The translations under genes were made by a program, and so were the position numbers. 64,000 bases of DNA from an uncultured Acetobacterium sp. (lineage in GTDB: Bacteria > Bacillota > Clostridia > Eubacteriales > Eubacteriaceae): the NCBI RefSeq assembly GCF_963664135.1, contig NZ_OY760905.1, positions 4,020,677 through 4,084,676 on the forward strand, given 5' to 3'. Positions 1 to 17,589 of the stretch are shown piece by piece; position 1 is the first letter of the stretch; each line of letters opens with the position of its first letter. The notes beneath the pieces are model-generated. The model searched no databases. It worked only from the letters and a program-made list of their open reading frames with translations, and had not been told where the DNA came from.

Positions 1-39
1 TTTATTGATGAGATAACTAAAGAAACAAAACTGGAATAG
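1..39 (+). CDS. 3' end of an upstream gene (partial)
   Basis: The first 12 codons in frame 1 are open and end in TAG at 37-39 (tail FIDEITKETKLE). The tail is charged and hydrophilic. Too little is present to assign a family. The next sequence is AT-rich and non-coding, which fits the end of a gene, but chance cannot be excluded. Confidence 0.3.
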   Translation, partial: FIDEITKETKLE

Positions 40-72
40 CTGGTGCAATTTAAGAATTTCGCTTATTTATTA

Positions 73-110
73 TGGTATAATACTCAAGTAAAAACATATA
101 AATACGATAA
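73..110 (+). promoter_or_regulatory. Candidate promoter(s) of the yjfB-like gene
   Basis: Two overlapping readings are possible. TATAAT at 76-81 preceded by TGG makes an extended -10 without a good -35. TCAA (84-87), 15 bases, then TACGATAA (103-110) resembles the flagellar sigma-28/sigma-D consensus TAAA-N15-GCCGATAA. The second is attractive because the gene belongs to a family known as a sigma-D target in Bacillus subtilis. Either gives a 5' leader of about 90-125 nt. Confidence 0.4.
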
Positions 111-211
111 AAGATACAGATACGTTTGCATTTTATAAAACGGATATCAGGATTAAAATTCAATGGTGTAAATTCGCACATGAATAACACCAAAAGAAAG
201 GTGGAATGAAC

Positions 212-418
212 ATGGATATTGCAGCACTATCGATGGGAATGAATCAAATGCAGGTTGCCCAACAGGCCAGCTTGTCGGTTATGAAAATGGCCATGGAAAC
301 CGGGACACAACAAATGACAGATATGGTGGCAATGGTAGAAACCAGTACTCCAACAGCGTCTGCGGCAGGTCCTTCACCAGACCCAAACATTGGACAGTTA
401 TTAGATATCTCCGTTTGA
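212..418 (+). CDS. YjfB-like putative motility protein
   Basis: A 68-residue protein starting MDIAALSMGMNQMQVAQQ, the conserved opening of the small YjfB family (putative motility proteins; yjfB of B. subtilis is sigma-D controlled). The N-terminal half should be an amphipathic helix rich in Met, Gln and Ala; the C-terminal half is Thr/Pro/Ala-rich with no membrane segment or signal peptide. I chose ATG 212 rather than the in-frame ATG 206 because the ribosome site AAAGGTGG (197-204) lies 7 bases before 212 but only 1 before 206. The gene stands alone with its own terminator. The molecular role is unknown. Family call fairly sure, function not. Confidence 0.72.
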   Translation: MDIAALSMGMNQMQVAQQASLSVMKMAMETGTQQMTDMVAMVETSTPTASAAGPSPDPNIGQLLDISV

Positions 419-420
419 AA

Positions 421-457
421 AAGAATCCAGTCGATTAGTGTCGGCTGGATTCTTTTT
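421..457 (+). terminator. Intrinsic terminator after the yjfB-like gene
   Basis: AGAATCCAG and CTGGATTCT form a 9-bp stem around a loop of about 12 bases, followed by a run of T. It begins three bases after the stop codon. Confidence 0.85.
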
Positions 458-598
458 TGAAATGGTAATTGACGCATCGCAGATAAGATAAAAACCGTTG
501 GATCGAACCGAGTCTTAATTATTCAGAGAAAATTGATTTAGACTTTAAAAAAAGGGTAAAAAGTTAAAATAATGTATAGAAAGTTGGAGGGAATAAAA

Positions 599-766
599 AT
601 GTGTTGTAATAAAAATGAAGACAGCCAATGCTGCGTAATGGCTCATAAGGACAAAATTGTTGCTTGTGCGTTAGTAACACTCACGATTGCATTTACAGTA
701 ACTGGTTTTATCATTGGGCATCGGTTTATGGGAAAAGGGTGCTGTAAAAAATCAGAGCAAGAATAA
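599..766 (+). CDS. Small Cys-rich single-pass membrane protein
   Basis: A 55-residue protein, family not recognised. It starts MCCNKNEDSQCC, carries one hydrophobic segment at about residues 21-39 (VACALVTLTIAFTVTGFII) and ends in a short tail with another CC pair (GKGCCKKSEQE). The six cysteines come as three CC pairs, two before and one after the membrane helix, which suggests metal or thiol chemistry at the membrane, but that is inference. ATG 599 is preferred over ATG 572 because GGAGG (586-590) is 8 bases upstream of it. A very strong terminator follows. Confidence 0.65.
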   Translation: MCCNKNEDSQCCVMAHKDKIVACALVTLTIAFTVTGFIIGHRFMGKGCCKKSEQE

Positions 767-781
767 TTATCATTGAGGATT

Positions 782-823
782 AAAAAAGAACCACTGCAAC
801 CATGGTTGCAGTGGTTCTTTTTT
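782..823. terminator. Perfect bidirectional terminator
   Basis: A 19-base arm (782-800) pairs perfectly with 805-823 around the loop CATG. A-tracts lead in and T-tracts follow on both strands, so it can serve the small Cys-rich gene (plus) and the parvulin gene (minus), which converge here. Confidence 0.93.
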
Positions 824-841
824 AATCGTGTAGTCATTATA

Positions 842-928
842 TTGGTGATTGCGAAATTCAAAAGGAATGAACAAAAATTGTTTAGTGCAAACCAATAGCG
901 AAACGCACGGTACTCTCGCAATTACCAA
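842..928. mobile_element. MITE-like element, copy A (87 bp)
   Basis: A non-coding element whose ends are imperfect inverted repeats: TTGGTGATTGCGAAA at the left matches the reverse complement of the right end, TTGGTAATTGCGAGA. Flanks are an imperfect direct repeat, TAGTCATTATA (831-841) and TAGTGGTTATA (929-939). The ends and some internal words (GCGAAAC, GAACAA, GCACGG) recur in the copies at 4902 and 10187, so this looks like a shortened member of one family. It lies between the shared terminator and the stop of the parvulin gene. Confidence 0.7.
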
Positions 929-934
929 TAGTGG

Positions 935-1693
935 TTATAGTGAGGTTGTTTCCATTTTTACGGGATATTTTTGTTTCAGGTCTTCAACTTTGCCGATAAA
1001 GGCTTTGTTTTGTTTTTCCCGTAATAAAAAAGTACGGGCGTTTTCTTTAACAGCATCAAAAGGAATGGTTTGGGCAATCTTGCGGTCAGTCAGTTTGATA
1101 ATGTGGAAACCAAACTGGGTTTGAACTGGCATTTCGGTCATTTCATCCACTTCCAGAGCAAAGGCAGCCGTTTCAAATTCAGGAACCATTTGTCCTTTTG
1201 AAAAATAACTCAGATCTCCGCCTTTTTCATTAGAAGGACAGATGGAGTATTCTTTTGCCGCCGCTTCAAAAGCTTTGCCATTTTTAATTTCATCAATAAT
1301 TGTAGTGGCCTGCTCTTCTGTTGGAAGAAGAATATGGCTAGCACGGATGCTGTCCGGGGCAATGAACTGTCCGGGGTTTTCATCATAGAATTTCTGCACT
1401 TCTTCGTCCGGTACAGTAATATCCATCATAAAGGTTGCAATCATATGAGTTTTCAGCAGTTTTTCTTCGGCATCGATGAGCATTTTTTGAAATTCTTCAC
1501 TTTCATCGATCTTTGCTGCTTTACCTTCTAAATAAAAAAGTTCCTGAGCAATGAGTTCCTCAAGTAATTGACGACGGCCTTCTTTTGATTTGAATTGGTT
1601 CGCCTGTTCCTGAGGTAATTGTTTTATTAAGGCATCTAAGTCCGCAGTGTAAATTGTTTTACCAGCCACGGTAGCCAAAGGGGTTTTTTCCAT
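935..1693 (-). CDS. Parvulin-type peptidyl-prolyl cis-trans isomerase (PpiC/SurA-like)
   Basis: 252 residues. Residues 1-110 form a SurA-like helical chaperone region; residues about 115-210 form the parvulin domain, with the conserved IRASHILL, GGDLSYFSKGQMVPEF and FGFHIIKL blocks. It catalyses proline cis-trans isomerisation and probably assists folding. There is no signal peptide or lipobox, so unlike PrsA it should be cytoplasmic. I chose the start MEKTPLA (1693) over the ATG seven codons upstream because AAAGGAG lies just before it. It is monocistronic, with a TTGACA-17-TATGAT promoter upstream. Its transcript would run through MITE copy A to the bidirectional terminator. Confidence 0.88.
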   Translation of the reverse strand: MEKTPLATVAGKTIYTADLDALIKQLPQEQANQFKSKEGRRQLLEELIAQELFYLEGKAAKIDESEEFQKMLIDAEEKLLKTHMIATFMMDITVPDEEVQKFYDENPGQFIAPDSIRASHILLPTEEQATTIIDEIKNGKAFEAAAKEYSICPSNEKGGDLSYFSKGQMVPEFETAAFALEVDEMTEMPVQTQFGFHIIKLTDRKIAQTIPFDAVKENARTFLLREKQNKAFIGKVEDLKQKYPVKMETTSL

Positions 1694-1733
1694 AATTGTC
1701 TCCTTTAGTTCCAAATTAATTTATTATCCTAGA

Positions 1734-1762
1734 ATCATAGCCTTTCATAGGATTTTTGTCAA
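1734..1762 (-). promoter_or_regulatory. Sigma-A promoter of the parvulin gene
   Basis: Minus-strand TTGACA (1762-1757), 17 bases, then TATGAT (1739-1734). Box quality and spacing are close to consensus and the position suits the gene starting at 1693. Confidence 0.78.
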
Positions 1763-1812
1763 TATCCAGAACAATAAAGGTACGGTAGGCATTCGCCAAC
1801 AATTAGTATTAT

Positions 1813-1845
1813 CTGGTTTTAATTGCTGAAAACCAGCAATTAAAA
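1813..1845. other. Two overlapping, mutually exclusive hairpins
   Basis: CTGGTTTT (1813-1820) pairs with AAAACCAG (1829-1836). TTTTAATTGCTG (1817-1828) pairs with CAGCAATTAAAA (1834-1845). The stems share bases, so only one can form at a time, the geometry of a switch. No obvious transcript covers it: it lies between the divergent parvulin and marR promoters. It may instead be a protein-binding site. Confidence 0.5.
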
Positions 1846-1919
1846 GCTTTGAGATTTATCGATAGGGTGATAGAAAAATTAAGTAATGCTTAACGATTCT
1901 AAATAAGTTTGACCTGATA

Positions 1920-1948
1920 TTGACAAGTATCGGGTTGGGGAGTATACT
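1920..1948 (+). promoter_or_regulatory. Sigma-A promoter of marR-lon
   Basis: TTGACA (1920-1925), 17 bases, TATACT (1943-1948): a near-consensus promoter. Transcription should start near 1955, just in front of the palindrome at 1959-1977. Confidence 0.85.
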
Positions 1949-1958
1949 GTTAACAAGT

Positions 1959-1977
1959 AGTTAGGTAATGACTAACT
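1959..1977. promoter_or_regulatory. Probable MarR operator
   Basis: AGTTAG (1959-1964) and CTAACT (1972-1977) form an inverted repeat with a 7-base centre. It sits immediately downstream of the expected transcription start of marR. MarR dimers bind such palindromes and commonly repress their own promoters, so autoregulation is a reasonable inference. Confidence 0.6.
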
Positions 1978-1999
1978 AATAAAAAAGTTGGGTGATAAT

Positions 2000-2419
2000 A
2001 TGGCATGTAAGAAGAATGAATTATATGAGGCTTATCATAAACTGCTGAAGCTGAATGCAGCGCTTCATGAAAATGAAACCTGTCAGTGTCAGGCCGAAGA
2101 TGTAACCTCAAAACAGAAATATTATCTGAAAGTCATCGATCAGAATTATCGGGTAACCTTCAGCCAGTTAGCTCAGGAAACCCAGAATTCAAAACCGACG
2201 ATTACCGAATTGATTAGTAAATTTATTTCCATGGGCTGTGTATACCGGGAACGTTCACCCGAGGACGGCAGGGTGTATTTTATCTATCTTACACCAAAGG
2301 GTCAATCAATTGCCAGATCCGAAGAAAGAACCCAAATACAAGTGATTGAACGCATCAAAAACAGTCTGACTGATGAAGAGCTGGATCAATTGATCACCTT
2401 ACTAAACAAAATCCTTTAA
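2000..2419 (+). CDS. MarR-family transcriptional regulator, Cys-rich
   Basis: 139 residues. The winged helix-turn-helix spans about residues 45-101 (VTFSQLAQETQNSKPTITEL, then wing RERSPEDGRVYFIYLTPKG), with dimerisation helices at both ends. Cysteines at 3, 28, 30 (a CQC motif) and 80 raise the possibility of thiol or metal sensing; the real ligand is unknown. ATG 2000 is preferred to TTG 1988 because GGTGAT (1991-1996) is placed as a Shine-Dalgarno for it. The lon gene starts 40 bases after its stop with no terminator between, so the two are probably co-transcribed and MarR may control this Lon copy. Confidence 0.85.
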   Translation: MACKKNELYEAYHKLLKLNAALHENETCQCQAEDVTSKQKYYLKVIDQNYRVTFSQLAQETQNSKPTITELISKFISMGCVYRERSPEDGRVYFIYLTPKGQSIARSEERTQIQVIERIKNSLTDEELDQLITLLNKIL

Positions 2420-2459
2420 TAAAAATAAACTTATGGTTAGAGGATGAGGAGGAAGAAAA

Positions 2460-4847
2460 ATGAACACATTAGAAATCAAAAACGCACCATTAATCCCGAT
2501 TACAGAAACAGTAATCTATCCGGGGATTTCCAATCGTATTTTTGTGAATGAGGATATTGGCAACAATATCAAAGAACTGATCATCAAGAATAACACCCTG
2601 GCCATTGGTTTATCAACGAAAGACTACAAAGGATTGGTCCAATTAACTGCTGATTCGTTTTATCGTATCGGTGTGTTGATGAAATTTGATAATATACAAA
2701 AGTCAGACAATGGCTTTATCATTGATATTACCACCATCAATCGTGTTAAAGTATTGGATTTTACCTTTGAAGAAAAACAGATCACCGCATCTTACACCAT
2801 TCAGGAAGATATCACCGATGTTAATGAAGATGAAGAACAAGAGATGATTGTTTATATTAAAGGATTAATGAAAGATTTAAGCCACAATTTTAAAGGAGCA
2901 GAATATTTTGTCAGTATCCTTGATGGATTACCTTCTTTAGAAGAAATCATGGGCTATACTGTTCCGATGATGGGTATTCCATTAAAGAGTAAACAAGCAT
3001 TACTGGAAATTGATTCCGTCAAAGAACGAACTCTCAGCTTTATTGATTATATTATCAGAGAAAAAGACTCGGTTCATCTGCAATTGGAAATCAGTAAAAA
3101 ATATTCGCAACGAAAAGATAAAACCTATCGCGAAGCGATGCTTCGGGAACAATTGAAAAATATAAAAGCCGAACTGGGCGAATTGGACGAAGAACTTGAA
3201 GAAGAAGCCGATTATCGAAAAAGAGTTCTGGAAACCGATATGCCTGCGGATATTAAAAAAATAGCATTAAAAGAAGTACGTAAATTTGAAAACTCACCGC
3301 CAAACGGAGGCGAAAGCAATGTCATCATGAATTATCTTGATCTGCTTTTGGAACTACCATGGACTAGTGAGAAAAAAGAAATTGACATTGAACACGCCAG
3401 ACAGGTACTGGAGTCTCATCACTTTGGTATTGATGATGTAAAAAAACGAATCATTGAACACCTGGCCGTCATGAAATTAAAAGAAGATAAACAAGGCTCA
3501 ATTCTATTGCTTGTGGGACCTCCGGGAACCGGTAAAACCAGCTTGGGTAAGAGCATTGCCGAAGCCTTAGATCGTAAATATGTCCGTGCCAGCTTGGGTG
3601 GAGTTCGCGATGAAGCCGAAATTCGGGGACATCGTAAGACTTATCTGGGCGCAATGCCAGGACGGATCATTAAAGGAATTGCCAACGCTGAAGCGAAAAA
3701 TCCGGTTTTCATCCTCGATGAAATTGACAAGATGGGGATGTCCCACCAGGGCGACCCCGGTTCAGCATTGCTGGAAGTTTTAGATCCTGAACAAAATTGT
3801 ACCTTCTCGGATCACTATTTAGAAATACCCTACGATTTATCCGAGGTATTCTTTATTGCCACCGCCAATGACCTTAGTACAATCCCGGCACCACTCTTAG
3901 ATCGTGCCGAAATTATTCAGCTGTCAAGTTATACCAACGGTGAAAAGAAACGGATTGCCATTGATCACCTGTTACCAAGTGTTTTAAAAGATCATGGTTT
4001 AACCAATGAGATGCTTCAAATCGAAGAAACTGCGGTTGAAGCGATCGTTGAAAACTACACCGCCGAAGCTGGGGTACGTGGTTTGACCAAGCAACTGGCA
4101 AAAATTGCCCGAGTTGTTTCGGAAAAAATCGTCTCGAAAAAAGTTGAACTCCCATTTGTGGTAACAACACAAAACATCAGTGAAGTATTGGGAAACAAAA
4201 CCAGACGTCACGAAAAAGCGGGTGAAAATAACAAACCAGGCGTCGTAACCGGAATGGCATGGACAGCAGTCGGCGGAGAGATTCTCTTCACCGAAGCCAG
4301 TCTGATGCCAGGAAGCGGCAAGCTGACCCTAACCGGTCAATTGGGCGATGTTATGAAAGAAAGTGCCACCATTGCCATGAGCCTGATCCGATCACGGTTA
4401 GGTGATTTGGCCAACGGCTTTGATTATTTCAAAAATGACACCCATATCCATGTGCCATCTGGTTCAACACCAAAAGATGGGCCATCTGCCGGGGTTACAT
4501 TAACAACCGCTTTGGCATCATTGATCTTGGGCAAACCAGTAGATTCAAAACTTTCCATGACCGGCGAAATTACCTTAAGCGGTCAGGTGCTACCAGTTGG
4601 CGGCATTAAGGAAAAGGTTATCGCAGCACAGCGCAGTGGCATTACCACAATATTATTGCCAAAAGATAATGAAAAAGATGTCAGCGATATTCCGGAAGAA
4701 GTCAGAAATGCCTTAACCATCATTCATGTTTCGACCATTGAGGAAGTCTTAAAAGAAGCATTGGGCATCGAGTTACCAGAAGTTAAACCGATTCTCAACC
4801 GACCCAAAGGCGATTCCAATGTACAATTGAGCATGGATAGTGAATAA
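2460..4847 (+). CDS. lon: ATP-dependent protease Lon (first copy)
   Basis: 795 residues, a full-length LonA. Domains: N-terminal substrate-binding LAN domain (about 10-200), coiled-coil linker, AAA+ module with Walker [10 protein letters not shown] and Walker B FILDEIDK, then the protease domain with the Ser-Lys dyad S676 (in PKDGPSAG) and K719 (in GGIKEK). It degrades misfolded and regulatory cytosolic proteins using ATP. AGGAGG precedes ATG 2460. It follows a MarR regulator and ends in a strong terminator, unlike the second lon at 30309 which sits in the usual clp-lon-engB block. This copy is thus probably the conditional, regulated one. Both have all catalytic residues. Confidence 0.95.
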
Positions 4848-4863
4848 TTTACAGTAAACAAGC

Positions 4864-4895
4864 GGGAGCTGTCTTAGGACAGCTCCTGTTTTTTT
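4864..4895 (+). terminator. Intrinsic terminator of the first lon
   Basis: GGAGCTGTC and GACAGCTCC form a perfect 9-bp stem with a TTAG loop and a T-run. The MITE copy B is inserted right at the end of this T-run. Confidence 0.93.
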
Positions 4896-4901
4896 AAAGC
4901 T

Positions 4902-5162
4902 TAGGCATTTGCGAAATTAAAAACATTGAACAATAGTTGCTTTGGGTACAATTTCCACAACAAGAAGAAATCGCGATGCGAATTTCTTCTTGTTCGCGGG
5001 CCGTCGCCAACTGTAAGCAAGCTTGTGATTGGCTCATTGCCTTCGCGAAAACAATTTCGTAACGTGTAGGCGAACAGCACGAGAAAATGTTGTTCGCCCT
5101 AGTGTAGAAATTGTTCCGTGCGAAACTGGGCTCAAAGCTCACGGCACTTTCGCAATTACCTA
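4902..5162. mobile_element. MITE-like element, copy B (261 bp)
   Basis: Left end TAGGCATTTGCGAAAT matches the reverse complement of the right end, TAGGTAATTGCGAAAG (13 of 16). It is flanked by the direct repeat TTTTAAAGC (4892-4900 and 5163-5171), a likely 9-bp target duplication. Inside are a hairpin GGCGAACA/TGTTCGCC near 5072-5100 and a segment absent from copy C that has its own perfect 10-bp hairpin (AAGAAGAAAT/ATTTCTTCTT, about 4961-4990). No credible coding frame. It occupies most of the lon-mutL gap. Confidence 0.82.
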
Positions 5163-5205
5163 TTTTAAAGCGCAATAGATTAACGCTTTTTTCCGACAGG
5201 TTTTA

Positions 5206-5234
5206 TCGACGGTCCGTTTTTCTTGTGATATAAT
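5206..5234 (+). promoter_or_regulatory. Promoter of mutL (extended -10)
   Basis: TGATATAAT gives an extended -10 (TATAAT at 5229-5234) with TCGACG at 5206-5211 as a weak -35, 17 bases apart. The start point should be at about 5241-5242, the A of the mutL ATG. Confidence 0.65.
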
Positions 5235-5241
5235 ATTTCTC

Positions 5242-7476
5242 ATGAAAATCAAAATGTTAAATAATGAAACAATTAATAAAATAGCCGCCGGTGAGGTTAT
5301 TATCCGACCTGTCTCAGTGGTCAAAGAATTGGTAGAAAACGCCATTGATGCTGGTGCCGATCAGATTGCGGTGATCATTGAGGCGGGCGGCAAAAACCGG
5401 ATTAGTGTCCGGGACAATGGCTGCGGTATCGCCTATAATGAAATTCCGTTGGCTTTTAAGCGCCATGCTACCAGTAAGCTCTCAGCTATCGAGGATCTGG
5501 AATCGATTGACTCGCTGGGGTTTCGGGGGGAGGCCTTATCCAGCGTTTCCGCCGTGGCCAAGGTACAAATCACCACCCGGTATGTGGATGAAGAGGTCGG
5601 TAGTCAAACCATTTTTGAAGGCGGCAAGCTGATCAATCAACGGGTGTGCGCCTATAACCGGGGTACCGAAATTACCGTTAGAGAGCTCTTTTACAACACG
5701 CCGGCGCGCCGCAAACACCTGGAGAAGGAAAAGAAAGAAGAAACCATTGTCCGTGATCTGGTGGAAAAAATTGCGGTTTCCCATCCGGGAATTCGTTTTC
5801 AGGTAAGCAGCAACGGCCGGAAAGTTCTGGATACTCCCGGCACCGGAAAGGTGCTGGATGTGGTGAAAGGACTTTATGGTGTTGAGGTTGCTGACAATCT
5901 GATCGCCCTTGACTACGAAAACAAACCGATGAAGTTGGCCGGCTTTGTCGGAAATCTAAAGACCATGCGAAGTCACCGTGAAGATCAGGTGTTTTTTATC
6001 AATGGCCGTTACATTAAAAATAGCCGGCTGGCCCAGGCGTTAGACGAAGCCTACGAAGGTTACAGTATGAAGCACCAGCATCCGTTGGGGATTATTTTTA
6101 TCGAACTGCCCGGCCGGATGCTGGATATCAATATCCATCCAGCTAAAACGGAAATAAAAATTCTCAATGAAAGTCTGGTTTGTCTGCTCTTTAAGCAGGG
6201 GATTCGGGAAACACTTCGGAACGCCAATCTGATTGTTGATGTGGGAACTCAAGATGATCAGAATCAAAAAACTTCCTGCTCACAAACTGAGGAAATAAAC
6301 AGTTCAGCGAATCACCAAAAAGAAAAATATAAAATTGAAAGCAACGGTAAAGACATTAGTAAAACGGAAGAGATTCAAAACCAGACGACCCTTGAGTCTG
6401 TTTTATGGACAAAGCCCAGAAAGTCTACTATTGGTGGAACAGATCTGGAAAAATCTGCTGAGCTAGTTAAACCGTCTGGAAAAGCAGATCAAATCACGGA
6501 CTTGATGGCAAAAGAGGATCAGGATCAATTGTCACTGAAGGAAAAGACAAGGATACATATTACACAGAATAGCAGGATGACGGAAAAATTGGAAAATCAG
6601 CGTGATGCATCTGTATCTAAAACGCCAGAAATATCTGAGGAGTCAGAAGTTAAGCCACGTGAACCAGCATTAAGAAATCAGGACGATCCACTGAAGCAAT
6701 TGTCTTTGACAATTGACCCATTACCAGTCTCTGGTGAACAAAATCGGGTTGCCGAAATGCCAGTCGTATTTGCTGGATTGGAATTAGCCCAAGACAAAAC
6801 ACCGCTACAAAGCATTAATCAAGAAAATATCAAACAAGTGTCAAACCAGCCAGTTGCAAAACCGGGTGTTAACGATTTGGCAAAAATGAAAATTGTCGGT
6901 CAATTATTTAATGTCTATATTCTGCTAGAAGGCGAAAAGGAAATTTATCTGCTGGATCAGCATGCTGCTCATGAAGCGTTTATCACCCAGGAGCTTTTGG
7001 GGATTTTTAAACGAGGCGATCGGCTCCCCAGTCAGGGTCTAATGACGCCGATACCCATAAAAATTCGTCCCAAAGATTTGGATCAGGTGGAAATGGCGCT
7101 AACTGATTATCAAAAACTGGGTTATGATTGTGATGTTTTTGGTGAAAATACCTTATTGGTGCGCAGTGTGCCAGTACTTTTAGGAGAGCCTCAAAGCGTT
7201 GAGTTACTAAAAACCATGATTGATGAAAATCTTTTTGAAAGAGATGACAATAACTTGTCAAAGACTGCTTTTTCGGAAGATGCCAAAAACAGGATCATTA
7301 CCATGGCCTGCAAAGCAGCTATTAAGGGGGGGCAACAGCTCACTCACAGTGAAATCAGTAAACTGCTGGAAAACCTGATGGCATTAGATAATCCCTATAC
7401 CTGCCCCCATGGCCGACCGATTATTATGAGATTAAAGGAATATGAATTAATGAAATTATTCAAACGGGTAGTATAA
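5242..7476 (+). CDS. mutL: DNA mismatch repair protein MutL
   Basis: 744 residues. The N-terminal GHKL ATPase carries E29 (VVKELVENAIDAG), the DNG loop near 58 and GFRGEAL at 93-99. A long, polar, low-complexity linker runs from about 335 to 545. The C-terminal dimerisation/endonuclease domain has DQHAAHE from residue 572, ACKAAIKGG and CPHGRP. It couples mismatch recognition by MutS to nicking and repair. The final Glu of the usual DQHAxxExxxxE motif is displaced by one position (Q583, E584). No Shine-Dalgarno precedes ATG 5242 and the promoter lies directly upstream, so the mRNA is probably leaderless. miaA follows after one base; mutS is not in the window. Confidence 0.95.
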   Translation: MKIKMLNNETINKIAAGEVIIRPVSVVKELVENAIDAGADQIAVIIEAGGKNRISVRDNGCGIAYNEIPLAFKRHATSKLSAIEDLESIDSLGFRGEALSSVSAVAKVQITTRYVDEEVGSQTIFEGGKLINQRVCAYNRGTEITVRELFYNTPARRKHLEKEKKEETIVRDLVEKIAVSHPGIRFQVSSNGRKVLDTPGTGKVLDVVKGLYGVEVADNLIALDYENKPMKLAGFVGNLKTMRSHREDQVFFINGRYIKNSRLAQALDEAYEGYSMKHQHPLGIIFIELPGRMLDINIHPAKTEIKILNESLVCLLFKQGIRETLRNANLIVDVGTQDDQNQKTSCSQTEEINSSANHQKEKYKIESNGKDISKTEEIQNQTTLESVLWTKPRKSTIGGTDLEKSAELVKPSGKADQITDLMAKEDQDQLSLKEKTRIHITQNSRMTEKLENQRDASVSKTPEISEESEVKPREPALRNQDDPLKQLSLTIDPLPVSGEQNRVAEMPVVFAGLELAQDKTPLQSINQENIKQVSNQPVAKPGVNDLAKMKIVGQLFNVYILLEGEKEIYLLDQHAAHEAFITQELLGIFKRGDRLPSQGLMTPIPIKIRPKDLDQVEMALTDYQKLGYDCDVFGENTLLVRSVPVLLGEPQSVELLKTMIDENLFERDDNNLSKTAFSEDAKNRIITMACKAAIKGGQQLTHSEISKLLENLMALDNPYTCPHGRPIIMRLKEYELMKLFKRVV

Positions 7477-7477
7477 G

Positions 7478-8431
7478 ATGAAAGTGAACAAACCCAAAGT
7501 TTTAGTCCTAGTCGGACCTACCGCCAGCGGAAAAACCGCCTTGGGGGTGGCGCTGGCTAAAAAGCTTGACGGCGAAATTATCTCAGCCGATTCGATGCAA
7601 ATTTATAAGTATATGAACATCGGAACGGCCAAGGTCACCCCTGAAGAAATGCAGGGGATTCCCCATCATCTGGTGGACTGTGTGCTACCGAATGAAGAAT
7701 TCAGCGTGGCAAGTTTTAAAGCAGCGGCTCTTAATGCCATTGAAACAATTCTTGTCAAAGGAAAACTGCCGATTGTATTAGGGGGGACAGGACTCTATAT
7801 TAATAGTCTTACGCTGCCCTGGGATTTTCAAAAAAAAGACAATGACGAAGAAATCCGCTGGCGGCTCACTGCCGAAGCCGAAATCCTTGGCCGGGACGCT
7901 CTTTATGAACGGCTGAAATCGGTGGATCCGGCCACGGCTGAAATTGTCCATCCAAATAATCTGAATCGGGTTATTCGGGCTCTGGAAATTTATGAGCTCA
8001 CCGGGAAGCCAAAATCCTATTTTGATGAGCAGACAAAAAAACAGGACGTCCCCTACGATTATGTGATACTTGGTTTAGACTGGGAACGTGAGATTCTTTA
8101 TGATCGCATCAATCACCGGGTTGATCTAATGATTGGGGATGGTCTCATTGATGAAGCGAAAATGCTGATTGACCGGGGCTATGATTGGAACCTGACCGCG
8201 CTGAAAGCGATTGGTTATAAGGAACTAAAGCCTTACCTGGAAGGCCAGTCTTCCCTGGAGGATGCGATCACCATTTTAAGACGAGATTCCCGGCATTATG
8301 CCAAGCGGCAGATGACCTGGTTCCGAAAAGATGAACGGATCCATTGGATAAAAATGAGTGAGAACAAGAATCTGGAAACTCAGGTGCATAACTGCCTTGA
8401 TTTGGTACAGCCACTACTTGAATTAAATTAA
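7478..8431 (+). CDS. miaA: tRNA dimethylallyltransferase MiaA
   Basis: 317 residues. It adds a dimethylallyl group to the N6 of A37 in tRNAs reading UNN codons. Visible motifs: P-loop VGPTASGKT near the N-terminus, DSMQIYKYMNIGTAK, GGTGLYI, and the C-terminal RRDSRHYAKRQMTWFRKD typical of the family. Length is normal. The ATG lies one base after the mutL stop, so translation is probably coupled; mutL-miaA is a widespread gene pair. Confidence 0.96.
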   Translation: MKVNKPKVLVLVGPTASGKTALGVALAKKLDGEIISADSMQIYKYMNIGTAKVTPEEMQGIPHHLVDCVLPNEEFSVASFKAAALNAIETILVKGKLPIVLGGTGLYINSLTLPWDFQKKDNDEEIRWRLTAEAEILGRDALYERLKSVDPATAEIVHPNNLNRVIRALEIYELTGKPKSYFDEQTKKQDVPYDYVILGLDWEREILYDRINHRVDLMIGDGLIDEAKMLIDRGYDWNLTALKAIGYKELKPYLEGQSSLEDAITILRRDSRHYAKRQMTWFRKDERIHWIKMSENKNLETQVHNCLDLVQPLLELN

Positions 8432-8459
8432 ATTGAAACATAGGAAAGCGAGAAATTGT

Positions 8460-9770
8460 TTGAACACTAAAAAAGACATTAAAACCTATCTTGAAAAAGA
8501 ATTTGCAATTTCAACAGAAATTATTGATTTTGTAAAACAAATTGAAAATGAAGTTTCACCCCAACTAAAAAAACTGGATGACATGTCCGAGCTTCACCAA
8601 TATCGGGTGATTAAGGCCATGCAAAGGGCTGGTTTGGGGGACCGCCATTTTACCGTTTCCACCGGCTATGGTTATGACGATGTCGGTCGGGAAGTGGTGG
8701 AAACCATTTATGCCGATGTATTTGGTGCCGAAGACGCCCTGGTGCGCCCCCACATTTCATCAGGAACCCATGCCATTTCATTGGCACTCTATGGGGTGCT
8801 GCGACCAGGGGATCACCTGTTAGCCATTACTGGTTCCCCCTATGATACCATCCGTACCGTTATTGGCTTGGAAGATGCCGGTGTGGGACAGGGCACCATA
8901 AAAGAATTCGGCGTGAGCTATGACCAGATTGAACTCCTCTCGGATGGCGGCTTTGACGAAGTGGCGATTCTCGCTGCCATTGCCCCCAACACAAAAATGA
9001 TTTATCTCCAGCGTTCCACCGGATATAGCTGGCGGGCGGCCTTAACCATGGAGACTATGGCCGCGATGATTAAAAAAATTCGGGAAGTCAAACCGGATGT
9101 AGTGGTGTTTGTGGACAATTGCTATGGGGAATTTATGGATCGTCAGGAGCCGGTTTCCATCGGCGCCGATCTCATCGCGGGTTCTCTGATTAAAAATCCC
9201 GGCGGTGGTTTAGCACCCACAGGTGGTTATGTGGCTGGTCGCAGGGATCTGGTTCACCTGGCCGCTTGCCGTTTGGCAGCACCAGGCGTTGCCCGAGAAA
9301 CCGGTGCCACGCTGGGGATCAACCGAACTTTGCTTCAAGGTTTGTTTCTAGCCCCAACAGTGGTGGCTCAAGCCATTAAATCGGCGGTGCTCCTGGCCGC
9401 CTGCTATAAAAAACTGGGCTTTGCTGTTTGCCCGGAAGTCACGGACTACCGTAGTGATATTATCCAGAGCGTCTGCCTTAACACGGCTGAAGGGGTTAAA
9501 ACCTTTTGTCAGGCCATTCAGGAGGCTGCCCCGGTGGACAGTCAGGCCATTCCGGAACCATGGGATATGCCTGGTTATTCGGACCCGATCATCATGGCAG
9601 CGGGAGCTTTTATCCAGGGATCGTCCATCGAATTGTCCGCAGATGCCCCGATGCGGGAACCATATTATGTTTATTTTCAGGGAGGATTAACCCATTTCCA
9701 TGGAAAACTGGGAATTTTATTAAGTTTACAGCGATTATTAGAAAAAAAAATGATTAAAATAAATTTATAA
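8460..9770 (+). CDS. Methionine gamma-lyase family (YnbB-like) PLP enzyme
   Basis: About 436 residues. It belongs to the PLP-dependent family named 'methionine gamma-lyase family' or 'aluminium resistance protein' (B. subtilis YnbB), usually found beside miaA, as here. Landmarks: RPHISSGTHAISLALYG, FVDNCYGEF (likely PLP Asp region) and DLIAGSLIKNPGGG (likely Schiff-base Lys). The physiological substrate is not established. No ATG is available: TTG 8433 and TTG 8460 are in frame. I prefer 8460, giving MNTKKDIKTYLEKEF, because AGGAAAG (8442-8448) lies upstream of it. It follows miaA directly and is probably in the same operon. Confidence 0.85.
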   Translation: MNTKKDIKTYLEKEFAISTEIIDFVKQIENEVSPQLKKLDDMSELHQYRVIKAMQRAGLGDRHFTVSTGYGYDDVGREVVETIYADVFGAEDALVRPHISSGTHAISLALYGVLRPGDHLLAITGSPYDTIRTVIGLEDAGVGQGTIKEFGVSYDQIELLSDGGFDEVAILAAIAPNTKMIYLQRSTGYSWRAALTMETMAAMIKKIREVKPDVVVFVDNCYGEFMDRQEPVSIGADLIAGSLIKNPGGGLAPTGGYVAGRRDLVHLAACRLAAPGVARETGATLGINRTLLQGLFLAPTVVAQAIKSAVLLAACYKKLGFAVCPEVTDYRSDIIQSVCLNTAEGVKTFCQAIQEAAPVDSQAIPEPWDMPGYSDPIIMAAGAFIQGSSIELSADAPMREPYYVYFQGGLTHFHGKLGILLSLQRLLEKKMIKINL

Positions 9771-9794
9771 GGGAAAATATCAAAGGAGGCTGTT

Positions 9795-10181
9795 ATGATC
9801 ACAAAAGAAAAAATTGAACGCATTAATGAATTGGCGCGCAAAAAAAAGATTGAAACATTGTCAGAAGACGAATTGGATGAACAAATGACCTTACGTGCAG
9901 AATATTTGGCAGCAATAAGAAAGAATTGTCGCGAACAATTGGATTCGATTATTATTGTGGATGAACCGCAATGTGATAATAAAGGAGGAAATAAAATGAA
10001 AAACGATGAAAAAAACGGGAGTTATGGTGAAGCCGAAGCTTTAGGGAACAAAGAAAAAGGTGAAGCAGGTGGAGCAGATTCAATTTATAGCAATGCTGAA
10101 GAATTAGGGAAAAAAAATGCCACCGATCCACATGAATTTATGGCTGGTGAAGAAGACGAAAAAGCAAGAGACAAAGAATAA
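9795..10181 (+). CDS. DUF896 (YnzC-like) protein with an acidic tail
   Basis: 128 residues in one frame. Residues 1-57 are a two-helix DUF896 domain (MITKEKIERINELARKKK to IIIVDEP), like B. subtilis YnzC, whose operon is SOS-induced; its function is uncertain. Residues 68-128 are a hydrophilic, Glu/Lys/Gly-rich, probably disordered tail absent from typical family members. Inside the gene AAAGGAGG (9981-9988) stands 7 bases before an in-frame ATG at 9996, so a 61-residue acidic protein could also be made alone. This may be a fusion of two small genes. The main start at 9795 has its own AAAGGAGG. Confidence 0.75.
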   Translation: MITKEKIERINELARKKKIETLSEDELDEQMTLRAEYLAAIRKNCREQLDSIIIVDEPQCDNKGGNKMKNDEKNGSYGEAEALGNKEKGEAGGADSIYSNAEELGKKNATDPHEFMAGEEDEKARDKE

Positions 10182-10186
10182 GTTTG

Positions 10187-10357
10187 TAGGCAATTGCAAA
10201 ATTAGAAAACAACGAACAACGGTTGCTTTGGTGCAGTTTCCACAAACACTTTCATAACGTGTATGCGAACAGCACAAGAAGATGTTGTTCGCCCTAGTGT
10301 AGAAATTGTTTTGTGCGAAACTGGGCACAAAGCTTATGGCACTTTTGCAATTACCTA
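10187..10357. mobile_element. MITE-like element, copy C (171 bp)
   Basis: Left end TAGGCAATTGCAAAAT matches the reverse complement of the right end, TAGGTAATTGCAAAAG (14 of 16). It is framed exactly by a perfect 10-bp direct repeat AATAAGTTTG (10177-10186 and 10358-10367), the best target-site duplication in the family. Its interior follows copy B closely but lacks about 90 bp of B's middle. The hairpin GCGAACA/TGTTCGC is kept. No coding frame. It separates the DUF896 gene from the aminopeptidase gene. Confidence 0.88.
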
Positions 10358-10389
10358 AATAAGTTTGAATAGGGAGATTTCAATTAACT

Positions 10390-11823
10390 ATGATTATTGA
10401 CGAAAAAGAAAAAAGCATCGGGGTACAGTTGCAAGAAAAATTAACCCAAAAATGGGATATTGCATGGAAAGATCTAAATAACGAAGATAACCAGAAAATT
10501 CAAGAAATCAGCAGTGATTACCTGACCTTTCTTACAAGTGGCAAAACAGAACGTCAATGTGTAGAAATCAGCGTAAAAATGGCAGAGGAAAAAGGATTTA
10601 AACCTCTTCATACCTATATTGAAGCCGGAAAAATTGTTCCTGGTGATAAAATTTATATGGTACATAAACAAAAAACAGTGGTTTTCTTTGTTGCCGGATC
10701 TGATCCCATTGAGAATGGAATGGCCATTGTGGGCGCTCATATTGATGCGCCCCGTTTGGATTTAAAACCGTCACCGCTTTATGAAAGTGATGATATGGCT
10801 TTTTTTAAGACCCACTATTATGGCGGCATTAAAAAATATCATTGGGTAACCATTCCCCTGGCATTACATGGCACCGTGGTGAGAAAAGATGGATCGACTA
10901 TTAATATTTCCATCGGTGAAGCACCGGAAGATCCGGTTTTTTGTATTACCGATTTATTACCCCACCTTTCTCAAGAGCAAAATACAAAAAAAATGACCGA
11001 AGGCATTACCGGTGAGGGGCTTAATATCATCGTCGGTAGTCAGCCTTATCCAGAAAAAGATTTAAAAGATGGTGTTAAACTCAATGTACTAAACCATCTT
11101 TATACTAAATATGGCATGCTGGAAGAAGATTTTGCAACGGCTGAACTGGAAGTGGTACCAGCTGGTGCCGCCCGTAACGTTGGATTCGATGAAAGTTTGA
11201 TTGGTGGATATGGTCAGGATGACCGCATCTGTTCTTATACAGCACTTAGAGCAATTCTTGATCGTGAGAATCCTAAGCGGACCCTCTGTGTTATTTTGGC
11301 TGACAAAGAAGAAATCGGCAGTGTCGGTAATACTGGCATGCAGTCCCGATTCTTTGAAAATGCGTTAGCTGAGGTAATTGACCTGATGGCTGTTGAAAAA
11401 CCGGAAATGGCTATGCGCCGTTGTTTCATGAACTCCGAAATGCTTTCAGCCGATGTTACTGCTGGAGTGGATCCCAATTTCACTGGAACCCATGACAAAG
11501 GAAACGCCCCATATATCGGAAAAGGGATTGTCCTATCAAAATACGGTGGATCTCGGGGTAAATCCGGCTCCAATGATGCCCATGCTGAATTTATGGGAAA
11601 AATGAGACAGACTCTCGAAGGTGCCGGCGTCATCTGGCAAATGGGTGAGCTTGGTCGAGTGGACCTTGGCGGCGGTGGTACCATTGCCCATATTCTTGCT
11701 GAATACGGGATGGATGTATTGGATTGCGGCCCAGCCCTGCTGAGCATGCATTCTCCATTTGAATTAGCATCGAAGGTTGATTTGTATATGTGTTATAAAG
11801 GATATAAAGCCTTTTTAGTTTAA
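10390..11823 (+). CDS. M18-family aminopeptidase
   Basis: 477 residues, normal for bacterial M18 zinc aminopeptidases (aspartyl/leucyl aminopeptidase type). Metal and catalytic residues are visible in GAHIDAPRLDLKP (His, Asp), ADKEEIGS (Glu-Glu), MLSADVTAGVDP (Asp) and LSMHSPFELA (C-terminal His). It removes N-terminal residues from peptides in the cytoplasm; no signal peptide. AGGGAG lies 12 bases before ATG 10390. It is apparently monocistronic. Exact substrate preference cannot be read from sequence. Confidence 0.92.
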   Translation: MIIDEKEKSIGVQLQEKLTQKWDIAWKDLNNEDNQKIQEISSDYLTFLTSGKTERQCVEISVKMAEEKGFKPLHTYIEAGKIVPGDKIYMVHKQKTVVFFVAGSDPIENGMAIVGAHIDAPRLDLKPSPLYESDDMAFFKTHYYGGIKKYHWVTIPLALHGTVVRKDGSTINISIGEAPEDPVFCITDLLPHLSQEQNTKKMTEGITGEGLNIIVGSQPYPEKDLKDGVKLNVLNHLYTKYGMLEEDFATAELEVVPAGAARNVGFDESLIGGYGQDDRICSYTALRAILDRENPKRTLCVILADKEEIGSVGNTGMQSRFFENALAEVIDLMAVEKPEMAMRRCFMNSEMLSADVTAGVDPNFTGTHDKGNAPYIGKGIVLSKYGGSRGKSGSNDAHAEFMGKMRQTLEGAGVIWQMGELGRVDLGGGGTIAHILAEYGMDVLDCGPALLSMHSPFELASKVDLYMCYKGYKAFLV

Positions 11824-11872
11824 GATGATAATTGAGAAACAATAGGATACCTGAATTTTTCGACAAAAATAC

Positions 11873-11902
11873 TTGATATCGTCCAGTCATATCAGGTATA
11901 AT
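11873..11902 (+). promoter_or_regulatory. Promoter upstream of the rnf leader
   Basis: TTGATA (11873-11878), 18 bases, TATAAT (11897-11902). Predicted transcription start near 11909, some 360 bases before rnfC. Confidence 0.72.
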
Positions 11903-11908
11903 ATTGAT

Positions 11909-12004
11909 CAAATATGTACTTACGGTTGGACAGACGCCAGTCTGTTTTCAAGAAAACTTCGTTTCCTGGGTGGGATGCTCTTTAGAGAGTTTCCCACTTT
12001 TTTT
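11909..12004 (+). ncRNA. Candidate small RNA or attenuated rnf leader
   Basis: About 96 nt lie between a good promoter and a terminator. Within it are CAGAC/GTCTG (11931-11944) and GTTTTC/GAAAAC (11944-11957), which share a base, and then the terminator stem. There is no credible reading frame. Either it is a free small RNA or, since rnfC is the next gene on the strand, a leader that ends most transcripts early. I could not match it to a riboswitch consensus I know. Confidence 0.5.
11970..12004 (+). terminator. Terminator inside the rnf leader region
   Basis: GTGGGA and TCCCAC close a stem that also contains CTCT/AGAG, followed by seven T. It lies about 60 bases after the predicted start and well before rnfC. 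Confidence 0.75.
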
Positions 12005-12016
12005 CGTGGAGGCAAC

Positions 12017-12089
12017 GAGCGAAGTTGGGGGCTCGCTCACATTTGGCGATTGCCTGCGAACGGCGTCAAAACACGGGAGCGAGTTTTGA
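12017..12089. other. GC-rich structured stretch before rnfC
   Basis: A compact set of inverted repeats: GAGCGA/TCGCTC (12017-12038), GGC-GATT-GCC (12045-12054), TCAAAAC/GTTTTGA (12066-12089) and an outer CTCGCTC/GAGCGAG (12032-12083). It is more GC-rich than its surroundings. It could be a structured 5' leader of rnf or a dispersed palindromic repeat; one copy alone cannot decide. The rest of the gap to rnfC (12090-12272) is AT-rich and I see no clear second promoter in it. Confidence 0.45.
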
Positions 12090-12272
12090 TTCGTTATTGT
12101 TATAAATACAGTGCTAAGAGTAAGCGGTTCATCAGACCTGGTAAGGATCATTTATTTAGAGAAAAAAACCAGAAACATGAAAATAATATAAAGATGCTAT
12201 TTTATATTATTATGTGGTACATATAGATCAAGAACATGTTTTGTAAAAATGATTGAGGAGCGTTAACTTAAA

Positions 12273-13604
12273 ATGAATGTAAAATATGGAACTTTTAGGG
12301 GCGGGATTCACCCACCTGATGGAAAGGAAAGTACAGTCGGAGTACCCTTGGCTTATGGTATCGCACCAAAAATGGTGACAATCCCAATGGCAATGCATAT
12401 TGGCGCACCATGCACGCCCGTTGTAAAAAAAGGCGATCTCGTTTTTCTGGGTCAAAAGATAGGTGAACCAAATGGTTTTGTATCGGTACCCATTCATGCA
12501 AGTGTATCAGGGAAAGTTGTGGCGGTAGAAGAAAGACCCCATCCATCGGGAGATATGATCCTGTCGGTTGTCGTTGAATCAGATGGTCTGGATACCATTG
12601 ATCCCAGTATTAAACCCTATGGTTTATTGGAAGAAATGGATGCCGAGGCCATCAAAAAAATGGTTCTGGATGCTGGCATTGTTGGCTTAGGTGGGGCGAC
12701 CTTTCCAACCCATGTGAAATTGGAAGTTCCCCCTGCTAAAAAGGTTGACTGTATCATATTAAATGGGGCAGAATGCGAACCTTATTTAACAGCGGATCAT
12801 CATCTGATGTTGCTGCACGCTGACAGGATTGTAGTAGGATTAAAAATAGCAATGAAAGCAGTCAGTGTTGAAAAAGGATTCATAGGAATTGAGGATAATA
12901 AAACCGATGCCATTGAAGCCTTGACAAAAGCGATCGGCAGTGATCCCAGACTTGAAGTTTACTCGCTTCGCACAAAATATCCTCAGGGTGCAGAGAAACA
13001 GTTAATTACAGCTATTACCGGTCGGCAAGTACCCTCAGGTGGCCTCCCCACTGATACCGGGGTGATTGTGATGAATGTTGGCACAGCTGCTCAGATCGCT
13101 GAATCCATGATAACCGGAATGCCTTTATACAAACGGTATCTTACCTGTACCGGGGATGCAATAAAAAATCCGCAGACGATGGAAATCCGAATCGGGGTTA
13201 CCTTACAATCCGTTATTGATCAATGTGACGGCTTTGTTTCTGAAGTAGGAAAAATCATTCTGGGCGGACCGATGATGGGGATCACCCAGTTTAGTACCGA
13301 CGTTCCGGTGATAAAAGCAACTTCAGGTATTTTATGTCTGACAAAAGCGTCAGCTGAGATAGCGCCGCCATCAAATTGTATTCGTTGCGGAAAATGCATG
13401 AGAGTCTGTCCGATTCATTTACAGCCTTTTAATATTGCTGCCTATTCTCAAAAAAATAAATGGGATAAATGCGAAGCAAACAATGCTATGGATTGTATTG
13501 AATGTGGGAGTTGTTCATACATCTGCCCGGCAAAACGGACCCTGGTTTCGTCAATTCGGGTGGCTAAACGCGAAATTGTCGCTCATCGAAGAAAAGGAAA
13601 TTAG
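12273..13604 (+). CDS. rnfC: Rnf complex subunit RnfC (NADH-binding)
   Basis: 443 residues. RnfC is the peripheral subunit that exchanges electrons with NAD(H) in the ferredoxin:NAD+ oxidoreductase. The N-terminal barrel-sandwich region is followed by the Rossmann/FMN part with VGLGGATFPTHVKL and NGAECEPYLTADH, then two ferredoxin motifs, CIRCGKCMRVCP and CIECGSCSYICP, for two [4Fe-4S] clusters. It is first in the operon, as in Acetobacterium woodii, and has GAGGAG upstream. In that organism Rnf drives Na+ export during acetogenesis; the ion used here cannot be read directly. Confidence 0.96.
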   Translation: MNVKYGTFRGGIHPPDGKESTVGVPLAYGIAPKMVTIPMAMHIGAPCTPVVKKGDLVFLGQKIGEPNGFVSVPIHASVSGKVVAVEERPHPSGDMILSVVVESDGLDTIDPSIKPYGLLEEMDAEAIKKMVLDAGIVGLGGATFPTHVKLEVPPAKKVDCIILNGAECEPYLTADHHLMLLHADRIVVGLKIAMKAVSVEKGFIGIEDNKTDAIEALTKAIGSDPRLEVYSLRTKYPQGAEKQLITAITGRQVPSGGLPTDTGVIVMNVGTAAQIAESMITGMPLYKRYLTCTGDAIKNPQTMEIRIGVTLQSVIDQCDGFVSEVGKIILGGPMMGITQFSTDVPVIKATSGILCLTKASAEIAPPSNCIRCGKCMRVCPIHLQPFNIAAYSQKNKWDKCEANNAMDCIECGSCSYICPAKRTLVSSIRVAKREIVAHRRKGN

Positions 13605-13615
13605 GAGGAACATTG

Positions 13616-14572
13616 ATGAATGAATTAAATCTTACCATGTCCTCATCCCCTCATATTCGGGCAAACCATTCCACTGCCAGCATTATGCAAAATGTTTTGA
13701 TTGCTTTATTGCCAGCATTGGCCGTGGCAGGATACGTTTTCGGAACCTGGGCATTAGCGCTAGTCGCAATCTGTGTAATCGCTTCGGTAGCTACTGAAGC
13801 GATCATTCAAAAATTATTGAAAAAACCAATCACTGTCAATGACTGGAGTGCTGTGGTAACCGGAGTGCTGTTAGCATTTAATTTGCCGATTAATGCACCC
13901 TGGTGGCTGGCTGTGGTGGGGTCTGTTTTTGCGATTGCCATTGTCAAACAGTGTTTTGGTGGTTTGGGACAGAATTTTATGAACCCCGCGCTGGCGGCAA
14001 GAGCGTTCTTATTGGCATCCTGGCCGGGACATATGACCAGTACGGCTTATATTCCTACCTTTGATACCGTTACATCGGCAACCCCGCTGGCCCTGTTAAA
14101 GTCCGGTGACTTTGCCAGTATGCCATCAACATTGGATTTATTTACCGGCTTAAACGGTGTCTACGGTTGTATTGGCGAAATTTCGGCGCTGGCTTTACTG
14201 TTGGGTGGGCTTTATCTTATTTTTAGAGGTATTATCAGTTGGCGAATTCCAATCATTTACTTATTAACCATTGGAATTTTTGCTCTGATGGTTGGCCAGG
14301 ACCCAATTGTCCATATTGTTTCAGGTGGGGTTATGTTGGGTGCCTTTTTTATGGCAACCGATTATGCATCATCTCCAGTAACATCAAAAGGTCAGATTAT
14401 CTATGCGGTGGGGTGTGGTCTAATCACCATGATCATTCGTCTATATGGAGGATATCCAGAAGGGTGCTCCTATTCAATTCTGCTGATGAACGTTGCCACA
14501 CCTTTAATTGAACGCTTCACCAAAGAAAAAATTTATGGTGTCGCTAAAAAGACAAAGGAGGCCAAGGCATAA
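13616..14572 (+). CDS. rnfD: Rnf complex subunit RnfD
   Basis: 318 residues, an integral membrane protein with many transmembrane helices (for example at about 27-55, 85-110 and 200-235). It carries the flavin-attachment motif VTSATPLALLK, whose Thr holds FMN by a phosphoester bond in homologues. NqrB/RnfD family. It passes electrons across the membrane between RnfG and RnfC/RnfB. ATG 13616 has AGGAGG 7 bases upstream; the TTG three bases earlier is less likely. Its stop overlaps the rnfG start (TAATG). Confidence 0.96.
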   Translation: MNELNLTMSSSPHIRANHSTASIMQNVLIALLPALAVAGYVFGTWALALVAICVIASVATEAIIQKLLKKPITVNDWSAVVTGVLLAFNLPINAPWWLAVVGSVFAIAIVKQCFGGLGQNFMNPALAARAFLLASWPGHMTSTAYIPTFDTVTSATPLALLKSGDFASMPSTLDLFTGLNGVYGCIGEISALALLLGGLYLIFRGIISWRIPIIYLLTIGIFALMVGQDPIVHIVSGGVMLGAFFMATDYASSPVTSKGQIIYAVGCGLITMIIRLYGGYPEGCSYSILLMNVATPLIERFTKEKIYGVAKKTKEAKA

Positions 14573-15201: not shown

Positions 15202-15216
15202 GAGGGAAAAGTAAAG

Positions 15217-15810: not shown

Positions 15811-15822
15811 GGGGAGAAAGAG

Positions 15823-16401: not shown

Positions 16402-16412
16402 GGGATAAGGAA

Positions 16413-17396: not shown

Positions 17397-17432
17397 CCAC
17401 AAAAAGTAAGATAATAAAACAGCCAATTTATT

Positions 17433-17466
17433 AAAGACTCCCTATTGAAAAATGAGGAGTCTTTTT
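17433..17466 (+). terminator. Terminator of the rnf operon
   Basis: AAAGACTCC and GGAGTCTTT form a 9-bp stem with a 14-base loop and a T-run. Confidence 0.88.
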
Positions 17467-17589
17467 CCTTAAGAATTTATGACAATTAAACCACTTAGTC
17501 AAAATTTTAATGAGAATTTTAGGAAACATGTATAAAATGATTCGAGATTCTGTTAAAATAGTAATATTGTTGATCCGAGGAGGCTTACT

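Follow-up and report, generated by a model that had tools for sequence, protein, structure and literature searches.

Three short elements, A, B and C, lie in a 64,000-nucleotide stretch of an uncultured Acetobacterium genome (contig NZ_OY760905.1, positions 4,020,677 to 4,084,676; hereafter, the window), and they raise the question of what they are, what moved them and how their landing places were chosen. An earlier note on this DNA had proposed that they are miniature inverted-repeat transposable elements (MITEs) mobilized in trans. We consider it highly probable that A, B and C are non-autonomous elements with insertion-sequence-like ends, which would be moved in trans by a transposase whose DNA target lies beside a Shine-Dalgarno-like motif. 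Newly seen here are a likely parent element, its absence from the genome that holds the window, and a fixed spacing between the elements and this motif.

Support for A, B and C as copies of a MITE family

Exact string matching placed the three elements and their flanking repeats, and it confirmed the positions given in the earlier note, the perfect 10-bp direct repeat around copy C and the imperfect 11-bp repeat around copy A (Table 1). The 9-bp repeat described around copy B (TTTTAAAGC) is present, but it abuts the right end only, one T separating the left repeat from the element; the flanks of B are better described as a 10-bp repeat that differs at one position, TTTTAAAGCT / TTTTAAAGCG. At 87, 261 and 171 bp the elements leave no room for a transposase gene, and they combine inverted repeats that match their boundaries with target-site duplications and many dispersed copies. 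These sequence features support the assignment of A, B and C to one MITE family.

The family is not limited to three copies. A blastn search with copy C of the closed genome that holds the window (G000; hereafter, the home genome) gave 47 pieces, or 40 places after neighboring pieces were merged by hand; a pattern of exact paired ends gave no match in the same genome and was too strict. Copy C was matched in 12 of 21 genomes searched, all 12 belonging to the genus (12 of the 13 genus genomes searched), and a blastn search of plasmids gave no match. In the relative G010, the element end was matched 246 times with at most one mismatch, compared to 2 times for a reversed control pattern, so this genome probably holds more than 100 copies. 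The 74 full-length G010 copies had a median pairwise identity of 92%, and their consensus folds as one long hairpin.

For analysis of the flanks, we kept 92 of 99 G010 end pairs that had enough flank and no more than four mismatches in both ends; the other seven, two unrelated pairs and those starting with TTG, were dropped by rule. Most of the retained elements were 170-171 bp, with smaller forms of 134, 60 and 52 bp, and forms of 259-261 bp resembling copy B were found in the home genome and in G001. Flush duplications of 9-13 bp, mostly 10-11 bp, were present at both ends of 71 of the 92 retained elements, compared to a chance level of 23 in 8372 mismatched G010 flank pairs, and when many copies were compared the ends fell at the copy boundaries. 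The proposed fit of duplications to element ends is thus upheld. Duplications of 9-10 bp, the length that had been expected of the mobilizing element, do occur, but the range is wider: 9-13 bp for MITEs and 10-14 bp for the insertion sequences described below.

Relatives also provided empty sites, as copy B is missing from the matching site in G005, G008, G012, G004 and G010. The outcomes that the earlier note had named as refuting its proposal were therefore not observed. G005 carries A (the stretch 300-1700 was matched at 96%) and C. At the sites orthologous to copy C in G010, G022, G009 and G026 no element ends were found, and there is no clean empty site for this copy because the neighborhood differs in these four genomes.

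The home genome further contains pairs of ends 52 bp apart, a spacing that would leave little beyond the two ends, one at G000:C1:327573-327624 and others at 653113, 184930, 300170, 1922769, 645464 and 2004261.

A likely parent insertion sequence and its transposase

The MITE ends that we had seen carried a T at the second base after GAAA. When 19 genomes of the genus were searched with an end pattern that barred this T, 1750-bp pairs were exposed in G025 and one 1677-bp pair in G010. G025 has 10 copies of the 1750-bp element, with 11-13 bp duplications and the TAGG...CCTA ends common to MITEs and insertion sequences of the family (TAGG...TTGCGAAA). The earlier note had suggested looking for an insertion sequence whose ends match, and such elements are indeed present in relatives: they measure 1.68-1.83 kb, are flanked by duplications of 10-14 bp and contain a single transposase open reading frame (ORF) of ~485 amino acids.

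The transposase was found in 10 of the 19 genus genomes. It is full length in G012 (Acetobacterium wieringae, NZ_LKEU01000013.1), G021, G003, G023 and G025, and is fragmented or interrupted by stop codons or frame breaks in G010, G004, G011, G002 and G026. The A. wieringae transposase gene occupies L134 470-1927 on the minus strand. The G010 matches at G010:C1:1106821-1108497 and 1286627-1287598 are broken or partial. At E ≤ 0.001 there was no match in the home genome, G005, G008 or G009, and G024 (81% complete), G001, G022, G006 and G007 were also without a match. The statement that the window holds no transposase therefore stands for the matching transposase, and for the whole genome, other kinds not having been searched. 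As no match was obtained in the home genome, its MITEs seem to have persisted beyond the loss of their helper.

Full-length insertion sequences were also found in many Lachnospiraceae. Scanning 84,980 species genomes yielded 136 relatives, and at 73 of the best 80 of these 136, which were kept, both TAGG-type ends were present within three mismatches (counted by hand). At most of the loci L125-L132 and L227-L306 the transposase-upstream end is a near-perfect palindrome, e.g. GGCGTTT-GCG-AAACGCC, and the other end is not.

The 485-amino-acid G025 product matched DUF772 and, weakly, DDE_Tnp_1. Among 23 transposases scanned, all matched DUF772 as well as the IS1182 NCBIfam model, and eight matched DDE_Tnp_1 at E ≤ 0.001. 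The best PDB match of an AlphaFold model of moderate confidence (mean pLDDT 74.9) was Tn5 transposase, at E 9.2e-4. Similarity to DDE families points to a DDE-type transposase with a putative RNase H-like fold and a putative catalytic D-D-E triad.

The end shared by MITE and insertion sequence is 13-16 bp long for the window copies and reaches 23 bp, with one mismatch, for a G010 copy. We rejected derivation of the whole MITE from the insertion sequence, as only the ends match. On the evidence of these ends, the insertion sequence is the likely parent of the MITEs.

A fixed spacing to a Shine-Dalgarno-like motif

At insertion-sequence sites the duplication is followed by 4-5 nt and then by a Shine-Dalgarno-like RRRAGG/GGAGG. 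We observed GGAGG in the transposase-upstream flank at 8 of 8 G025 target sites and at five sites of G012, G021, G003 and G023. For elements of the A. wieringae/G025 type, GGAGG stood at +6 in 11 of 11 sites with a duplication, which was 11, 12 or 13 bp long; the more distant Acetobacterium elements L133 and L149 had GAAAGG at +5 (by hand).

Among the best 80 of the 136 loci, 73 had a distinct readable upstream flank and seven did not, and 44 of the 73 had duplications of 10-14 bp (three of these, L227, L228 and L240, are Acetobacterium sites already counted). Alignment of the 44 sites on the duplication end gave A at +8 in 41, G at +9 in 42 and G at +10 in 42. RRRAGG at +5 was present at the transposase-upstream end in 33 of 44 sites, compared to 1 of 44 at the other end; in that one case, L292, the motif lies at the other end instead. 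By the broader rule coded for the MITEs (GGAG at +6 or RRRRGG at +5 past the duplication end), 36 of 44 insertion-sequence sites fit. The distance from duplication to motif stayed constant while the length of the duplication varied.

Under the same rule, 65 of the 71 G010 MITEs with a duplication were in register (35 on the right, 29 on the left and 1 on both sides), compared to a mean of 1.8 and a maximum of 8 over 1000 runs with shuffled flanks. Measured independently of the duplication, GGAG started 15-21 nt from an element end in 62 of 92 G010 elements, and the next three bins held 2, 5 and 2 of 92; in the home genome, where left flanks were only 30 nt long, the same bin held 14 of 22 and the next bins 3, 0 and 0. 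Seven of the ten home-genome copies with a duplication were in register. Loci of other species numbered 27, which fell to 8 after removal of 8 with poor ends, 9 without a duplication and 2 duplicates, and all 8 were in register (L032 and L042 are G010 copies). In a replicate for which the rule was fixed in writing before analysis, 31 near-full-length copies were chosen among the matches listed in G005, G008, G009 and G012; after exclusion of 17 without a recognized duplication and 1 without ends, 10 of 13 copies were in register.

Tandem arrays

Plasmid pCY360 of Butyrivibrio proteoclasticus carries two head-to-tail copies in the order 14-bp repeat, element, 14-bp repeat, element, and this array closes with the last 11 bp of the 14-bp repeat followed by ATATT and GGAGG. 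Two landings at one motif, with 14- and 11-bp duplications ending at the same base, explain this arrangement simply. Three copies lie in a row in G025 with 11-bp spacers, and G010 has MITE pairs with spacers of 8-11 bp (L080, L170 and L181; tandem MITE rows with three mismatches were left out). The tandem arrays suggest repeated landing at one motif. The head-to-tail arrays of the insertion sequence, in which one target-site duplication splits the copies, lie at L128 (300-5572) and L319 (2892-6437).

Proposed mechanism and alternatives

In the mechanism that we propose, the transposase of a full insertion sequence would act in trans on the MITE ends, as their shared ends and target rule suggest. 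The target would be chosen in DNA and would consist of an AT-rich stretch, 4-5 nt and a purine-rich AGG/GGAG core, that is, a Shine-Dalgarno sequence. One strand would be joined at a point that hardly varies, 4-5 nt ahead of the motif, and the other 9-14 nt further out, an outcome of which would be duplications of variable length that end at equal distance from the motif; the spacing comes from comparison of sites, and the strand chemistry is what we infer. Because the motif is not consumed, further copies could land at the same site, giving tandem arrays, and because it marks the 5' edge of genes, most insertions would lie close to coding sequence but not within it, and the ribosome-binding site would be spared. 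The ribosome-binding-site side may in this way be a low-harm landing place. As the parent was not found in the home genome, the MITE copies there are probably immobile now.

The same distribution could arise if the transposase landed in any AT-rich DNA and selection kept those insertions that lie just outside genes, before ribosome-binding sites. The duplications are AT-rich by eye, and a possible start does lie beyond most sites: 60 of 66 G010 motif sides had a start-like triplet where one was expected (ORF unchecked), and of the 36 insertion-sequence sites that combine a duplication with the motif, 24 had a start plus ORF, the other 12 being without one by the criteria used and some of them having short ORFs. 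Survival of this kind would, however, spread insertions over the leader, and GGAG instead falls in one 7-nt bin (62 of 92, versus 2, 5 and 2) at a distance that is constant from the duplication end despite varying duplication length. Register is also kept at two insertions within open frames and at two sites by hairpins. The former are two G025 copies inside frames open for 300 nt before and 288 nt after, with GGAGG in register, and one of the two interrupted frames matches methyltransferase families. At L028 the motif is in register within a terminator-like hairpin, and the GGAG beside copy B lies in the stem of the hairpin 4865-4886 after a lon-like gene and does not precede a start codon. 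(L303, where the motif is also in a terminator-like hairpin, was discarded as a further case, as it has no known duplication to anchor the register.) Since in-gene and hairpin sites fit the rule, recognition of a DNA motif is favoured over survival bias, which we judge very unlikely.

Targeting might also be indirect. Ribosome-binding sites are occupied by RNA polymerase, by ribosomes on nascent mRNA and by RNA-DNA hybrids, any of which could recruit the transposase to the Shine-Dalgarno sequence. Such recruitment would suit the resemblance of most targets to true ribosome-binding sites, and internal Shine-Dalgarno-like sites can bind ribosomes too, but the register is also kept where the motif lies in a hairpin stem or within a gene, and on balance we regard this route as unlikely. 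That the elements are no transposons at all, but REP/BIME-like repeats or regulatory hairpins spread otherwise, agrees with strong hairpins at largely intergenic sites; given flush target-site duplications, the lack of copy B at its site in relatives, and the existence of complete insertion sequences that share these ends and follow this target rule, this idea retains almost no credibility. The explanation that we favour is that the transposase itself recognizes the motif in DNA. We think it probable that a Clostridia-wide family of DDE transposases recognizes the Shine-Dalgarno sequence at the DNA level and inserts upstream of it at a constant distance, MITEs and insertion sequences using ribosome-binding sites as renewable safe sites and rewriting many leaders.

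Several points weigh against this explanation. Transposition, mobilization in trans, the cut positions and direct reading of DNA are all inferred from sequence. The insertion-sequence and G010 sets were those on which the motif rule was developed, and the G010 elements came from places among the matches listed and not from all copies. No duplication was recognized at 21 of 92 G010 elements, and among 30 loci of the home genome 12 had no duplication and 8 had poor ends. The exact register was missed by 6 of 71 G010, 3 of 10 home-genome and 3 of 13 replicate copies (by eye, a Shine-Dalgarno-like stretch lay no more than 7 nt off in 5 of 6, 3 of 3 and 1 of 3 of these, respectively), copy A has no in-register motif on either side as read by hand, and 8 of 44 insertion-sequence sites fail the coded rule. 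On the transposase tree, clustering by target subtype is weak (16 changes, compared to a shuffled mean of 18.6, with a value as low in 7 of 200). MITEs follow the rule in both orientations (36 right, 30 left) whereas insertion sequences are oriented to the motif, a contrast that is unexplained. A tandem junction was found at none of the loci of the best 80 of 136 relatives, the MITE interiors had no match to the insertion sequences examined, and the Tn5 match had a TM-score of 0.34 for a model with pLDDT 74.9. In G010, GAAAGG accompanied 9 of 13 GTT-type sides and 7 of 49 AAT-type sides (p 2.4e-4), but we dropped this link between end subtype and motif subtype as support because it is contradicted by the A. 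wieringae element, which has a GTT-type end yet lands at GGAGG; end letters alone therefore do not set the motif.

Relation to known systems

By protein sequence, the transposase appears to be distant kin of the IS1182 and IS5 groups. The IS1182 family, including IS1272, supplies its nearest NCBIfam model and has a single ORF of similar size, but two of the proteins scored 60.7 and 61.5 bits against this model (NF033551), under its cut-off of 270. IS1182 proper was rejected as the parent, as elements of the same genus that exceed the cut-off (L320, L337, L321, L329 and L339) have other ends; these five IS1182-type elements have clear ends, and by eye neither a flush duplication nor the motif rule was seen at them. 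L320, L337, L329 and L339 are unrelated IS1182-type elements bounded by GGGGGTGTCGCAAAA or AGGGGCTGTCGGG, with no duplication visible. IS1272 inserts by replacing inverted repeats and creates no duplication (PMC5678879), whereas duplications of 10-14 bp flank the insertion sequences here at 44 of the 73 sites that could be read. Duplications of the IS1182 family span 2-60 bp (PMC7335449), so duplication length alone does not exclude this family. The likeness to IS5-type/DUF772 transposases lies in the DUF772 and DDE_Tnp_1 matches above and concerns the protein only, not ends or targets, and the NCBIfam IS5 models scored far below cut-off. ISAs1, guessed as the parent from the ends and duplication length, was rejected: PF13808 (DDE_Tnp_1_assoc) was found in 0 of 9 genus genomes, a set outside which G025 falls, and was not among the Pfam hits of three transposases scanned.

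Tn7 and yeast Ty are safe-haven transposons that aim where insertion does little harm, and the elements described here would likewise aim at a low-harm place. Tn7 uses a single site, attTn7 (PMC10969869), whereas the target here is a short motif before many genes and not one locus or gene class. The elements resemble bacterial MITEs in being short and non-coding, with inverted ends, duplications, many copies and a likely parent elsewhere, and differ in keeping a fixed spacing to a Shine-Dalgarno-like motif; the main text of a prokaryotic MITE review (PMC10969869) has no word beginning "Shine" and no "ribosome binding". Among the open-literature matches listed, represented by titles and abstract openings, no Shine-Dalgarno-targeted insertion sequence and no Acetobacterium MITE was apparent. 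The literature covered consists of the open papers among those matches, and an earlier description of the landing rule may exist.

Features of the window

The AGGGAG to the right of copy C precedes a peptidase M18 ORF that starts at 10390. The hairpin 4865-4886 beside copy B is listed on the minus strand, and a T-run follows it on the plus strand (by eye). With up to two mismatches, the end TTTCGCAATTACC was matched 10 times in the window, compared to 2.7 expected in shuffles, and 6 of the 10 matches are the ends of A, B and C, the only places in the window with both ends at no more than two mismatches each. Lone end-like matches lie near 3832 and at 15975-15989; the latter is right-end-like with two mismatches, lacks a partner end and is perhaps a decayed copy. 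An Rfam scan of positions 1-20000 of the window at E ≤ 1 gave no family on the elements. A Na+ riboswitch-like match (RF03071) at 11924-11979 scored 40.2 bits, just under the gathering score of 40.5.

Table 1. MITE copies, flanking duplications and in-register motifs in the window.
Feature	Position	Strand	Sequence	Remarks
MITE copy A	842-928	+		87 bp, ends TTGG...CCAA
Left target-site duplication of A	831-841		TAGTCATTATA	11 bp, 2 mismatches to right copy
Right target-site duplication of A	929-939		TAGTGGTTATA	
MITE copy B	4902-5162	+		261 bp, variant with ~90 extra bp internally; strong hairpin, RNA fold z -6.48
Left target-site duplication of B	4892-4901		TTTTAAAGCT	
Right target-site duplication of B	5163-5172		TTTTAAAGCG	1 mismatch
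GGAG at +6 past left duplication of B	4883-4886	-		Register counted by hand
MITE copy C	10187-10357	+		171 bp, standard full-length form; DNA fold of 10188-10359, z -4.04
Left target-site duplication of C	10177-10186		AATAAGTTTG	Contains stop codon of ORF 9795-10181
Right target-site duplication of C	10358-10367		AATAAGTTTG	Perfect 10-bp repeat
GGAG at +6 past right duplication of C	10373-10376	+		Within Shine-Dalgarno-like AGGGAG

Implications

If this explanation is correct, transposons in many genera, gut Lachnospiraceae among them, would be using a short translation signal as their target, which would account for the presence of probably more than 100 copies in a single genome at little harm to it. 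The explanation would also predict that many 5' leaders in these bacteria have been remodelled by element insertion, and the element ends could help to place true translation starts.

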